Below are positions 18,086-24,542 of a stretch of 64,000 bases of DNA, in pieces. Location: assembly GCF_002715865.1 (NCBI RefSeq), contig NZ_CP017696.1, forward strand, positions 1,674,001 through 1,738,000. The letters run 5' to 3'. Below the pieces are notes generated by a model that worked only from the letters and a program-made list of their open reading frames with translations, ran no database searches and had not been told where the DNA came from. Every line of letters starts with the position of its first letter. Within the stretch, counting starts at the first letter, position 1. This DNA comes from Bifidobacterium asteroides DSM 20089 (GTDB lineage: Bacteria; Actinomycetota; Actinomycetes; Actinomycetales; Bifidobacteriaceae). The position numbers and the translations under genes were made by a program.

Positions 18086-21000
18086 ATGGGGAATGCTCAT
18101 GGCATCCGCAGACTGATGACGCTGACAGCCATGGTTGGGTTGGCACTGATCGGCGCATCAACAGGAGCATACGCAACCACAGGCGATACGGCGCCTTCGC
18201 CTACCACGGAAACGCCCTCTCCCAGCCCGTACAGCAGCGTGAGTCCATTGCTCAGGACGGGCGGCGAAGCACAGGCCGGGGCCGCTGCTCCGACCGCCAC
18301 ACCATCACCGCTGGCCAGCAACAATCCCTCGCCTTTCAAGTCCATCCTACCGTTCAACGAGAAAAAGACAGACAAACCCATCAGGAACAGCTCACCGAGA
18401 GCCAAGTCGCCACAGACCAGGGATTCATCCTCATATACCCTCACTTTCGAGCCTGACGGGGGCTCGCTGACGTCCGGCTCGCCGGCCTTGAGCCAGACAG
18501 TAACCTCAGGTCATCTGGCATCTCCTCCTACCGTCACCAAATCAGGCTACCTGTTTGACGGATGGTTCCTGAAGGGCTCCGATGTAGCCTATGACTTCGG
18601 CAAGCCGGTCACCAGCGCGCAGTCGCTGACGGCCCATTGGTCGTCGGTCAACGACGCCCAGTGGACGACAGCCGACGTCAGCGGTGACGACACCGGGGGC
18701 TCTGCAATCACCCTGACTCCCCCCAAACCCAGAGGGGTGAGATTTGCACAGGTCAGCGCCGGCCACGACCACACCCTGGCCGTAGGTTCGGACGGCCACG
18801 TCTACGCCTGGGGCGACAACAGCAAGGGCGAGCTTGGCGACAGCACCACAATCAACAAAAACACGCCAGTGCGGATTACCGAAAACGAGGCCATCAAGGG
18901 AAAGACCTTCATATCCGTCAGCGCGGGAACCACATTCTCCATGGCCCTAGCCTCGGACGGCACCGTCTACACCTGGGGCGACAACAGTCGCGGCGAACTC
19001 GGCAACGGGTCCACCACGAATTCTTCAGTACCGGTAAAGGCGAATCTCAACGCCACCATCACCGCCATCAGCGCCGGATACTGGCATGCCATGGCCCTGT
19101 CCTCGAGCGGGACGATCTACACATGGGGAGACAACGAATACGGCCAGCTCGGCAACGGGCACACGGGTGTCAACGTCAACGCTTCACCAGCAGCGGTCTC
19201 TTCATCCGGCGTCACCTTCACCACCATCAGCGCCGGATACGATTTTCAAACGGCGCTGGACAGCCAAGGACATGCCTACGCCTGGGGACGCAACCAGGGC
19301 GGCCAGCTCAGCATCGGCACCATGGACGGCACCAGCAGTGGTTCCAACGTCTACACTCCATCGCGCATTTACGGCGACTCGACCGGCAACCCAGACAGCA
19401 CTGTCTACACCGACATCGATGCAGGGTACCTGCACGTCCTGGCACTGAGCAATTCAGGCAAGGTATATTACTGGGGTTATCCCCTGACCAAAGGAGATGA
19501 CCCCAATGCCGACAGCGTTCACTCCTTCTATCCCAGTCTGGTAAGCCTGCCCACGGGAGCGGCGACGCCTGTTTCAGCCAGCGCCGGGGACTACTCCTCT
19601 GCGGTGGTCGACTCTGCGGGCAGCCTGTACATGTTCGGCAGCAATTCCAGCGGTCAGCTGGGCGACGGAACCACAAAGCCTAAATCAACTATGACCGAGG
19701 TGAGCCTGACAGGCGTCACAGTCGCCGCATTCGATGTCTGCCGGCACAGTCTGGCCATCGGCTCGGACGGGCTCCCCTACAGCTGGGGGGAAGCGAAAAG
19801 CGGCAAGCTGGGACAAGGCAGCAAGGGACCTCAAAGCGGTTCGCAGACCAAGCCTGCAGCGGTCGGCCCACCCCAGATAGACCTGGCCAAGGTAACCTTC
19901 GGCAGGACGGATGTAGCCAAGACCGACACCAACAGCCCGATTAGCCGAACTTCAGCAGGCGACGACACCTGGAGTTCAAATACCCCATGGACGGTCACTA
20001 CCCCGCACCACACTTACGGAACCACCAAGATCAGGATCAACGACGGTCAATGGTCCATTGGCGGTGCTGCACAACAGGGGCAAAGCATTGGCAACTATAC
20101 ATTCGCACCCACTGCCCAGAAGATCACCTTTGATTCGGACGGAGGCTCATCAGCCTCGGACCAGTTCGTCACCGCAGGCAAGCAGGCTTCGCGCCCCACC
20201 GTCACCAAGGCAGGTTTCCTGTTCGACGGCTGGTTCATCAAGGAGGCGGACGGCAGCTCCAATGTGGCCTACGACTTCAGCAGTCCTGTCACCGGGCCAC
20301 TGAATCTGAAAGCGCATTGGTCTTCGTCAGACATGAAATGGAAGACCTCGGATGCCCTCCATGGCGACGACACCGGGGGCTCCAAAATCACCCTGACTCC
20401 CCCCAAGCCCAGAGCAGTGAGATTTGCCCAGGCCAGCGCCGGGCGCTATCACACCCTGGCTGTGGGTTCTGACGGACACGTCTACGCCTGGGGAAATCAG
20501 GCCAGCGGCGGACTGGGGAACAGCAAAAACTCAGGCACGGCGACGACACCTGTGCGAATCACCGAAAATGATGCCATAAAAGGAAAAATCTTCATAGCCG
20601 TCAGCGCCGGGGATGCTTATTCCATGGCCCTGGCCTCGGACGGCACGGTCTACACCTGGGGCAACAACGGCAAGGGACAGCTCGGCAACGGCACTACCGG
20701 AAGCTATTCCAGCGAACCAGTAAAGGCACAGACAGACAATGCCAAAATCACCGCCATCAGCGCAGGACGGGCATATGCCATGGCCCTGGCCTCGGACGGC
20801 ACGGTCTACACCTGGGGCGACAACACTCAAGGCCAGCTCGGCATCGGCAACTATGACAGCCATTCCACCCCTACCAAGGTCACGGCGTTGTCCAACATAA
20901 CAGCCATCAGCGCAGGATTTACCTCGGGCACGGCCCTGGACAGTCAAGGCCACGCTTGGACTTGGGGCCAGAACGACAAGGGGCAGCTTGGCAACGGCGC

Positions 21001-23572
21001 CCCTAATCGCAGTCCGACACCGACACGTGTCCAAGACCTAGACACCGGACAGCCTGATACTCGGTTCTATATCGCCATCAGCGCGGGCTACCAGCACGTG
21101 CTGGCGCTGGATACGGATCATGACCTCTATGGATGGGGTTCCGGCACCGCCATCGGCTCCACTACAGATACCAATGTCAGTAAGAGAGGATCCACCGCGA
21201 TTAGCTTTGGAGACGAGCCTGTCAACATCACCGCCATCAGCGCGGGCGACGATGGATCGGAAGCCATAGACGACAGCGGAAAGATCTATACCTGGGGCAA
21301 GGAGGCCTACGGCCAGCTGGGCAACGGCGTGTACGATAATACGGCTTGGCAGATCAATCCGAAAACCATCACCCTGGCCCAGTCGGTAAAGGCTTGCACG
21401 GTATCCACCTCCAGCCATCACCAGACGGCCATTGGGTCTGACGGATTGCTCTACACCTGGGGATACAGCTACTACAACCAGCTTGGACGAACCGGAGCGA
21501 TCTCAGTGCCCGGCACCACACAGTCGCCCCAGATTACCCTGATTAAGGTCGTCTTCGGCACCATGGCCAGCAGTACCAAGCCAGCCACAAACCTGACCCA
21601 GACAGGCAACGACACCTGGGATGCAAACCAGGATTGGACCTTCGTCACACCCGCGTACCCGTACGGCCCCTCCAGTTTCACTATCACATGGACTATTGCC
21701 GACGATACCGGAGACTCAAGGCAGAGGCAGCAGTTCGACTACACCTTCGATCGGACCAAGAAGCGCATAACGCTTGACCCCGAGGGAGGTACTGGAGCTG
21801 CATGGACAAGCAAGGACATCGAGGAAGGTGAATTGGTACCCCGACAGACCCTGACCAAGACGGACTTCCTCTTTGACGGGTGGTTCGTCAAAGCGGCTGA
21901 CGGCAGTTCCAATGTGGCCTACGACTTCGGCAAGCCAGTCACGGAACCGTTGACCCTGGTCGCGCACTGGACGCTTTCGACTCAAATGACCGTCGACCCA
22001 ACCGTCAGTCCATCCACTGGCGGATACCAGGTCACCATCACTCCGCCCTCGCAGCGCGGCATCCGCTTCGCCCAGGTCAGCACAGGCAAAAACCATTCTC
22101 TGGCCGTCGGCAGCGACGGCAACGCCTACGCCTGGGGAGACAACAGCACGGGACAGCTCGGAAACGGCAGCAAGGACAGCAGCAAGACGCCAGTCCAAGT
22201 GAAGAAGCCATCCGACGCAGGTACAGACTTCGCCTACACCCAGGTAAGCGCAGGATATGGATTCTCGTTGGCCCTCGGAAGTGACGGTAATGCCTACGCC
22301 TGGGGAGACAACGGCAGGGGGCAGCTTGGCAAGGGCGCTGCAGGCGGCACCAATACGACGCCCGTCCAAGTGAAAAAGCCCTCCGGTGCAGGCACTGACT
22401 TCGCCTACACCCAGGTAAGCGCAGGAGGCTATCATTCCCTGGCCGTCGGCAAGGATCATCAGGCCTATGCCTGGGGGGACAGGAGCAACGGCGGACAGGT
22501 GGGCGACGGTAACACGACCGGGAACGCCCCTGCTCCTGTAGCCGTCAACGCAAGCGCCACCAGTCCTGGGTTCCAAGTCAGGCAGGTCAGTGCGGGATAC
22601 CAGCACTCTCTGATCATCGGCATAAGCGGACAAACCTACGCCTGGGGATACGGCGACAGCGGCAGACTGGGCAACAATGCCAAATCCTCACAGGCCACTC
22701 CTGTGTCGGTGTCGTCACCCGTGAAATACGAGGACGGATCAATAGGCTTCTTTGCCACCCAGGTCAGCGCAGGGGGCTCACACTCCCTGGCCATCGGCAG
22801 AGACGGCAAGGCCTACGCCTGGGGTGCGAATACCGACGGACGCCTGGGCACCGGAGACACCAATGATGCTGCAATACCGACCCTGGTGGCCAATCCCGAC
22901 GGAGGCAGCGATGGATTCAAACCCACCGAAATCAGCGCCGGTGGATGGTTCTGCGCGGGAATCGACGACAAAGGGAAAATATACACCTGGGGAAGCAACG
23001 GTCACAACGCCCTGGGCAATGTCTCCATCTCAGGATCCATCAGCGAATCCCCCGTTCTGGTAAGCAAAGACGGCAGCACCACACAGATCAGTGCAGGCGA
23101 GCGCCAAGTCCTGGTCATCGACTCCAATGACATGGCCTATGGCTGGGGCGACAACAGCAGCAGACAGCTAGGAACCAATTTGGACAGCACTTCCGTCAAG
23201 GCAGCCACCTTGGTCTGCCCGCCGCAATTGACCATCAGCTCGGTCACAGTCGGCACGGATCCGGATACTGCTACAGTTCTTGAACTGACCCGGAGCGGCA
23301 CAGCCGACGCATGGGGATCATGGAATACCTGGACCTTCTATACCCCAGCCTTCAAGGCGGGCCGGACAACAGTCAACGTCACCTGGAATGTGGGCCAAGG
23401 CAACCCTCAAACCGAGAATCTGCCCTTTACCTACAAGGATATTCTGCCTCTGACCGGTAGCCAGGGTCTGCTCATCGTGCTGCTTGTCGGACTTTTCATA
23501 ACGGTGACTGTCCTGGCAGCAAGACAGCATTACTTGGAAATGGCTCGTCAGACTCTAACCAGCACTCGCTGA
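18086..23572 (+). CDS. Wall-anchored surface protein with 21 RCC1 repeats in three modules
   Basis: An 1,828-residue exported protein. The ATG at 18086 follows GGAGGA by eight bases. Residues 1-30 form a signal peptide ending AYA. A Pro/Ser/Thr-rich stretch leads to three copies of one module: an InlB-type B-repeat (each with the LFDGWF core and a TAHW-like end), seven RCC1 repeats of the type SAGYHSLAVGSDGNAYAWGDN followed by GQLGNG, and an Ig-like strand-rich unit containing DTWS..PWTV/DTWDANQDWTF. Seven RCC1 repeats make one seven-bladed beta-propeller, so three propellers are predicted. The end LPLTGSQG, a hydrophobic helix and RQHYLEMARQTLTSTR is a sortase signal, with a longer basic tail than usual. 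The role is probably adhesion or binding; no ligand is evident. Confidence 0.88.
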   Translation: MGNAHGIRRLMTLTAMVGLALIGASTGAYATTGDTAPSPTTETPSPSPYSSVSPLLRTGGEAQAGAAAPTATPSPLASNNPSPFKSILPFNEKKTDKPIRNSSPRAKSPQTRDSSSYTLTFEPDGGSLTSGSPALSQTVTSGHLASPPTVTKSGYLFDGWFLKGSDVAYDFGKPVTSAQSLTAHWSSVNDAQWTTADVSGDDTGGSAITLTPPKPRGVRFAQVSAGHDHTLAVGSDGHVYAWGDNSKGELGDSTTINKNTPVRITENEAIKGKTFISVSAGTTFSMALASDGTVYTWGDNSRGELGNGSTTNSSVPVKANLNATITAISAGYWHAMALSSSGTIYTWGDNEYGQLGNGHTGVNVNASPAAVSSSGVTFTTISAGYDFQTALDSQGHAYAWGRNQGGQLSIGTMDGTSSGSNVYTPSRIYGDSTGNPDSTVYTDIDAGYLHVLALSNSGKVYYWGYPLTKGDDPNADSVHSFYPSLVSLPTGAATPVSASAGDYSSAVVDSAGSLYMFGSNSSGQLGDGTTKPKSTMTEVSLTGVTVAAFDVCRHSLAIGSDGLPYSWGEAKSGKLGQGSKGPQSGSQTKPAAVGPPQIDLAKVTFGRTDVAKTDTNSPISRTSAGDDTWSSNTPWTVTTPHHTYGTTKIRINDGQWSIGGAAQQGQSIGNYTFAPTAQKITFDSDGGSSASDQFVTAGKQASRPTVTKAGFLFDGWFIKEADGSSNVAYDFSSPVTGPLNLKAHWSSSDMKWKTSDALHGDDTGGSKITLTPPKPRAVRFAQASAGRYHTLAVGSDGHVYAWGNQASGGLGNSKNSGTATTPVRITENDAIKGKIFIAVSAGDAYSMALASDGTVYTWGNNGKGQLGNGTTGSYSSEPVKAQTDNAKITAISAGRAYAMALASDGTVYTWGDNTQGQLGIGNYDSHSTPTKVTALSNITAISAGFTSGTALDSQGHAWTWGQNDKGQLGNGAPNRSPTPTRVQDLDTGQPDTRFYIAISAGYQHVLALDTDHDLYGWGSGTAIGSTTDTNVSKRGSTAISFGDEPVNITAISAGDDGSEAIDDSGKIYTWGKEAYGQLGNGVYDNTAWQINPKTITLAQSVKACTVSTSSHHQTAIGSDGLLYTWGYSYYNQLGRTGAISVPGTTQSPQITLIKVVFGTMASSTKPATNLTQTGNDTWDANQDWTFVTPAYPYGPSSFTITWTIADDTGDSRQRQQFDYTFDRTKKRITLDPEGGTGAAWTSKDIEEGELVPRQTLTKTDFLFDGWFVKAADGSSNVAYDFGKPVTEPLTLVAHWTLSTQMTVDPTVSPSTGGYQVTITPPSQRGIRFAQVSTGKNHSLAVGSDGNAYAWGDNSTGQLGNGSKDSSKTPVQVKKPSDAGTDFAYTQVSAGYGFSLALGSDGNAYAWGDNGRGQLGKGAAGGTNTTPVQVKKPSGAGTDFAYTQVSAGGYHSLAVGKDHQAYAWGDRSNGGQVGDGNTTGNAPAPVAVNASATSPGFQVRQVSAGYQHSLIIGISGQTYAWGYGDSGRLGNNAKSSQATPVSVSSPVKYEDGSIGFFATQVSAGGSHSLAIGRDGKAYAWGANTDGRLGTGDTNDAAIPTLVANPDGGSDGFKPTEISAGGWFCAGIDDKGKIYTWGSNGHNALGNVSISGSISESPVLVSKDGSTTQISAGERQVLVIDSNDMAYGWGDNSSRQLGTNLDSTSVKAATLVCPPQLTISSVTVGTDPDTATVLELTRSGTADAWGSWNTWTFYTPAFKAGRTTVNVTWNVGQGNPQTENLPFTYKDILPLTGSQGLLIVLLVGLFITVTVLAARQHYLEMARQTLTSTR

Positions 23573-24157: not shown

Positions 24158-24542
24158 ATGAAGATGGTACGTAGTCGTGGCGCCACAGTACTCGTCAGTC
24201 TATGCTACGTCTTGGTCGCCTTCAGCATGATTGGCCTGCAGATTGGTCAATCAGCGCTGGAGACCATCAGGCTCTGGCACTGGATTCCCGGCAACGCATC
24301 TGGACCTGGTGACAGGTCAAGCGTGAGAGCAAGAAAGTCCCAGCCCTATTGGCCTTTCCCAACGGACTGCCGACGGGGTTTGCTGTCAGGCAGATCAGCG
24401 TCGGTACCGGTGCATCCTAAACTGGAGCAATACCACAGAAGGCGCAAATCCTGCATTCTTGGCCGAATCCAAGGAAGCGCCTGCAGATTTCAGTGGCGGG
24501 AGAGCGGGATGGCAGCATGACAGAGAGGCGACGACACTATGA
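24158..24542 (+). pseudogene. Decayed fragment of an RCC1-repeat surface protein
   Basis: An ATG at 24158, with GAGG upstream, opens a signal-peptide-like stretch (MKMVRSRGATVLVSLCYVL). After a frame change the DNA from 24244 reads SISAGDHQALALDSRQRIW, then TW and a TGA at 24310. This is a textbook RCC1 repeat that stops where the conserved WG should be. The same frame continues to FAVRQISVGTGAS and a TAA at 24418, again RCC1-like, and a third frame shows NTTEGANPAFLAESKEAP up to a TGA at 24540. Frame changes and stops show a broken gene. The nearest relative in the window is the large RCC1 protein ending 600 bases upstream, so this may be a lost tandem paralogue. Confidence 0.68.

Follow-up and report, generated by a model that had tools for sequence, protein, structure and literature searches.

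The RCC1-like domains of human RCC1, HERC2 and RPGR have nucleotide exchange, ubiquitin ligase and ciliary roles, respectively, inside eukaryotic cells; other such propellers are UVR8, the single-propeller plant ultraviolet-B photosensor, which has neither B-repeats nor a wall anchor, and BLIP-II, a single, unanchored RCC1-like beta-lactamase binder secreted by bacteria. The closest described systems are the RCC1 surface proteins of bee bifidobacteria: Bifidobacterium asteroides PRL2011 was reported to encode 19 RCC1/Flg_new genes (Bottacini et al. 2012, PMC3447821), and bee bifidobacteria 7-24 RCC1 genes per genome, with tandem arrays of paralogs (Ellegaard et al. 2015, PMC4449606). In the latter account, Flg_new stands ahead of each RCC1 domain, the domains average 7 repeats, the proteins carry 2-4 such domains and an LPxTG motif, and a single 3-domain protein occurs in all Bifido-1 strains. 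Here we analyze a 64,000-nucleotide window of the B. asteroides DSM 20089 genome (NZ_CP017696.1, positions 1,674,001 to 1,738,000; genome of 2.19 Mb on one contig), centering on a gene for a predicted wall-anchored protein with three RCC1 propellers, henceforth the three-module gene. Its product is like the bee-bifidobacterial proteins in having one Flg_new unit per domain, about seven repeats and an LPxTG-type anchor, its architecture is in essentials that of the known family (PMC4449606), and it would presumably be the gene bearing the Bifido-1 label. As far as the available parts of the two accounts go, what is added here is the near-invariance of the number seven, a division of the family into two tiers, face-specific variation, the sister relationship of modules 1 and 2, and the distinction between LPxAG and LPLTG sorting signals. 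Judged by title, no other paper listed in literature searches on RCC1 and Bifidobacterium concerns these proteins. We regard it as fairly probable, from sequence and predicted structure, that the three-module protein is a sortase-anchored, multivalent wall binding protein with a ligand that is fixed across the clade.

The computed architecture comprises, from N- to C-terminus, a signal peptide, a Pro/Ser/Thr-rich linker, three successive units of B-repeat, seven RCC1 repeats and a strand-rich segment, and an LPLTG sorting signal. The protein matches the Pfam RCC1 model PF00415 over 20 stretches (E=3.3e-184, 597.9 bits against a cut-off of 21.7) and Flg_new PF09479 over three (E=1.4e-28), while a profile built from the family's own repeats recovers 7+7+7 repeats at 28-77 bits each; Pfam, NCBIfam (for the B-repeats) and this profile concur on the layout. 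Chance repeats or an artefact were considered and are ruled out by these E-values and by the existence of orthologs. The initial annotation, made from the sequence alone, had already read the gene as three sets of seven repeats, each led by an InlB-type B-repeat, with an LPLTG anchor, and all of this is borne out, the LPLTG being followed by a hydrophobic stretch and a basic tail; its DTW-containing unit after each set stands for units 1 and 2, the third having DAW instead. It had likewise predicted one seven-bladed propeller per module. AlphaFold2 models of all three modules match solved RCC1 propellers, as judged from the match lists and not from the coordinates, with UVR8 giving the best structural matches, and the predicted blades are four-stranded. 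Searching the PDB by phmmer with 111 residues of the strand-rich DTW unit returned a single match, at E=0.97.

The B-repeat/propeller order and the repeat counts elsewhere, which had been suggested as a check, agree with this picture: in other genomes of the genus the repeat number is seven in 70 of the 71 counted modules, which occur two, three or four to a gene. These stretches were picked for large RCC1 genes and are not a random sample; the count is of open reading frames (ORFs) with at least 400 residues and at least four repeats, leaves out seven that a locus end truncates, and includes two (L044:9733-12999 and one in L049) that lie at or near such an end. Three genes in L050 and L051, each with two modules, showed no B-repeat ahead of the first propeller. 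Within the DSM 20089 genome all 39 modules of the 19 long RCC1 genes have seven repeats when two profiles are used together. The canonical modules do so in 26/26 cases. The canonical profile at its threshold sees only 2-6 blades in each of the divergent short-blade N-terminal modules described below, and a profile trained on those modules themselves gives seven positive-scoring blades in 13/13, a count that ignores fragments below zero bits and includes one blade of R842 scoring only 2 bits. Thus, seven repeats per module is nearly a rule. RCC1 matches occur in 22 of the 27 sampled genomes of the genus and, at E<=1e-8, in 39/189 of the family, i.e. these 22 and 17/162 outside the genus. Beyond the genus, in four loci (L027-L030), a B-repeat profile built from bifidobacterial sequences, which may miss some, found none, and repeat runs range from 1 to 7. 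One of these loci, from a Clostridia metagenome-assembled genome (L027, 2-21964), holds a 7321-codon frame in which 84 RCC1-like repeats were found, at most seven in a row, and no B-repeat.

The three-module gene has full-length matches in eight Bifidobacterium records, and adjoins a gene that we take from its sequence to be valS in all 11 relatives whose loci were fetched, at 73.7-93.5% identity; this count covers 11 relatives, with 15 of the 27 genus genomes outside it, and eight of the 11 were judged to be the same as the eight full-length records. Across our gene and seven orthologs, with the most distant one (L023) left out, the ratio of nonsynonymous to synonymous substitution rates (dN/dS) is 0.19, and the gene is, by this measure, under purifying selection. 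Since the strands in a blade alternate, the S1-S2 loop, which carries the GxxH motif, and the S3-S4 loop share one face of the propeller (here the 'top'), and the S2-S3 loop lies on the opposite ('bottom') face. In the same eight sequences the ratio of nonsynonymous to synonymous differences (pN/pS) is 0.04 for the GxxH motif (alignment columns 7-10) and 0.35 for the S3-S4 loop: as aligned, the S3-S4 loop is the least constrained part within the blade and the GxxH positions are held. Columns 8-9 align with the Trp-Arg of the UVR8 GWRHT motif and the corresponding pair of GFRHT (W285F mutant chain).

The DSM 20089 genome encodes at least 20 RCC1 genes, which lie in six places besides the valS-side locus, with clusters that include 368-413 kb, 618-626 kb and 1064-1080 kb. 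They come from an RCC1 search that scored 150 of 218 candidates; a B-repeat search, with all 42 of its candidates scored, leads to the same genes plus one match outside the list, in a 195-residue frame at 2057 kb. A first look at two further genomes, G002 and G021 (1.9 and 2.3 Mb), gave 497 and 535 RCC1 candidates, as against the 218 here. Among the 20 genes found, the valS-side one is the only three-module gene; 19 are long and carry a sorting signal, and the remaining one (404289-406115) is short and broken, with four repeats. Of the 19, six, including the three-module gene, are of a canonical type with canonical blades throughout, whereas the other 13 combine a canonical C-terminal propeller with an N-terminal propeller of short blades, starting about 40 residues apart. 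These N-terminal propellers are devoid of the WG..GQLG loop and are seen weakly by the Pfam RCC1 models (e.g. L010:9637-10689, minus strand); a profile built from eight of the 13 weakly finds HERC2, UVR8 and RCC1-type chains, a list in which BLIP-II does not figure. The sorting signals also vary: LPxAG is found in 15 of the 19 (12 short-blade, three canonical), LPLTG in three, all canonical, and LPSTG in one. There are two sortase-family matches in the genome, and the LPLTG and LPxAG genes may be served by different sortases.

Comparison with the relative G018 (valS 97.9% identical) separates the two types. The three-module gene is 92% identical, and the five other canonical genes have counterparts at 95% (R396), 92% (R400), 84% (R392 and R409) and 80% (R284); the R400 counterpart is broken into two pieces (G018:C1:541788-545430), so the conserved tier too loses members. 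Among the 13 short-blade-type genes only one has a counterpart at 88%, the other 12 having best matches at 63-74%; eight of the 13 have a best match that is not reciprocal. Comparisons among the canonical C-terminal propellers of the 13 show a difference at column 8 in 83% of cases and at column 9 in 87%. The five reciprocal short-blade-type pairs give pN/pS values, with pS taken from all blade columns, of 1.06 for columns 8-9 (bootstrap 0.83-1.30), 0.98 for the S3-S4 loop, 0.36 for the bottom loops and 0.34 for the strands (0.28-0.39), over a count of 62 blades that includes N-module blades fitting the canonical profile weakly. The corresponding values are 0.18 (bootstrap 0.00-0.42), 0.51, 0.15 and 0.09 for the three-module gene and 0.39, 0.49, 0.16 and 0.21 for four other canonical genes, the broken R400 being left out. 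With pS drawn from columns 8-9 alone, corrected dN/dS there is 1.31 in the short-blade type vs 0.09 in the three-module gene. This regional contrast shows where in the sequence change is tolerated or favoured, and does not by itself prove positive selection. It allows a more tentative proposal, which we put at rather below even chances: that the wall repertoire has two tiers, with canonical genes keeping a largely fixed top face for constant ligands, and short-blade genes, with fast-evolving top faces on a held scaffold and bottom, acting as diversifying propeller receptors.

For the three-module protein itself we infer surface display, binding as such, a binding face and a ligand along the following lines. 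Spacers made of the B-repeats and strand-rich units would hold three rigid seven-bladed propellers in a row along the wall. Each propeller would turn its top face, formed by the GxxH loops and the long WG..GQLG..P loops, towards an extracellular ligand, for which the candidates are the bee gut surface, a glycan from pollen or mucus, and a component of the cell wall, either its own or that of a neighbouring bacterium; the short-blade-type paralogs of the same genome would form the changing part of the repertoire. The signal peptide and wall anchor speak for export; RCC1 proper, the guanine-nucleotide exchange factor of Ran, acts on this GTPase within the cell. Since the top-face GxxH positions hardly vary between species the ligand is probably constant across the clade. 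Several observations weigh against such a reading. Within the gene's blades the greatest variability falls in the S3-S4 loop, which lies on that same face, so that the face is only partly fixed; the value of 1.06 for columns 8-9 of the short-blade pairs is not significantly above 1, and relaxed constraint also fits the variable loops; four of the five best short-blade pairs, with identities of only 72-74%, may not be truly orthologous. The conserved patch could equally serve self-assembly. In that case the propellers would pack face to face, as in UVR8, to form a surface coat or join cells, with the patch as a homotypic contact. UVR8 is indeed the best structural match, and its monomers are held together by salt bridges of R286, beside W285, and of other residues near the sensor tryptophans (PMC5091643), positions whose equivalents are nearly fixed in the three-module protein. 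However, column 8 is mixed: of the 20 blades in which it is occupied, six have Tyr, three Asp and three Gly, which departs from the Trp/Arg pattern of UVR8, and we consider such self-assembly unlikely.

A BLIP-II-like function, in which the protein would bind or inhibit a secreted protein, appears about equally improbable: the blades of BLIP-II are three-stranded (PMC6121496), and those of the three-module protein, which is wall-bound, are predicted to be four-stranded. The gene could also be a slow member of a surface repertoire that changes under phage or host attack, as might be suggested by the 20 or more clustered RCC1 genes, by gene gain and loss right next to it, and by the diversification of the family inferred earlier (PMC4449606); its dN/dS of 0.19 and its synteny in all fetched relatives speak against this, and we hold it to be the least likely of these explanations. 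The reading as a wall binding protein with a constant ligand is thus the one we favour, and the spot on the top face, nearly fixed here and varying in many paralogs, hints that some binding targets stay constant and others change. Noteworthy is how many RCC1 propellers one bacterial wall would carry, here in a clade of bee symbionts. The valS-side gene, being single and syntenic, is a natural first target for functional study, with the contrast to its paralogs pointing to the residues worth examining and the contrast between tiers being the part worth testing.

Trees of the modules from four genomes (DSM 20089, L022, L023 and L026) and paralogs unite modules 1 and 2 as sisters (support 100/100). 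Each of the three modules groups with its positional equivalent across genomes, and the module order is therefore older than these species. When the divergent N-terminal modules are left out, a branch with support of only 82/40 separates the three modules from the rest; with them included, module 3 has no settled placement. The original reading of a tidy triplication and an old duplication is thus supported in part; a one-step triplication is a possible origin that is not shown by these trees. In the 11 seven-blade genes compared, ours included, the DNA identity between blades 1 and 2 of module 3 is 78-95%, and in some genes the two look homogenised. A six-bladed module in L023/G025 is real in that record, and recombination between these two blades would explain it; the record looks like a short-read draft and in G010, the other relative at 74%, the two blades have 95% DNA identity, so that assembly collapse and deletion are indistinguishable.

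Table 1. Features of the three-module gene and its surroundings (positions in the window).
Feature	Position	Strand	Basis
Three-propeller wall-anchored RCC1 protein	18086..23572	+	one open frame, 1828 aa
Sec-type signal peptide, ends ...STGAYA	18086..18175	+	read by eye
B-repeat 1 (InlB-type; Flg_new / List_Bact_rpt)	18434..18631	+	Pfam, NCBIfam
Propeller 1, 7 RCC1 repeats	18743..19876	+	repeat profile, predicted model
Strand-rich unit 1 (DTW)	19877..20119	+	sequence; strands in predicted model
B-repeat 2	20120..20317	+	Pfam
Propeller 2, 7 RCC1 repeats	20423..21532	+	repeat profile, predicted model
Strand-rich unit 2 (DTW)	21533..21766	+	sequence, predicted model
B-repeat 3	21767..21967	+	Pfam
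Propeller 3, 7 RCC1 repeats; blades 1 and 2 with 80% DNA identity	22067..23227	+	repeat profile, predicted model
Strand-rich unit 3 (DAW replaces DTW)	23228..23440	+	sequence, predicted model
LPLTG sorting signal, hydrophobic stretch, basic tail	23444..23569	+	sequence
Putative N-terminal remnant of neighbouring two-propeller RCC1 gene (whole here in L019, L021, L022, L024)	24158..24520	+	by eye

The ATG at 18086 is preceded by GGGGAGGAAG, a GGAGG-type ribosome site, and the stop codon occupies 23570-23572; a search for promoters and terminators gave signals no more frequent than in shuffled sequences. The presumed valS gene lies upstream; downstream is a chorismate mutase gene on the opposite strand, followed by what is presumably rho. 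In L019, L021, L022 and L024 a 14-repeat RCC1 gene lies between these two, and in L020 and L025 one lies between the three-module gene and chorismate mutase, with another, cut by the locus end, after the latter; in L023 and L026 there is no neighbouring RCC1 gene in the downstream stretch examined. The putative remnant in our window (Table 1) has no Pfam match and, by eye, looks like the loss of such a gene beside the conserved one.
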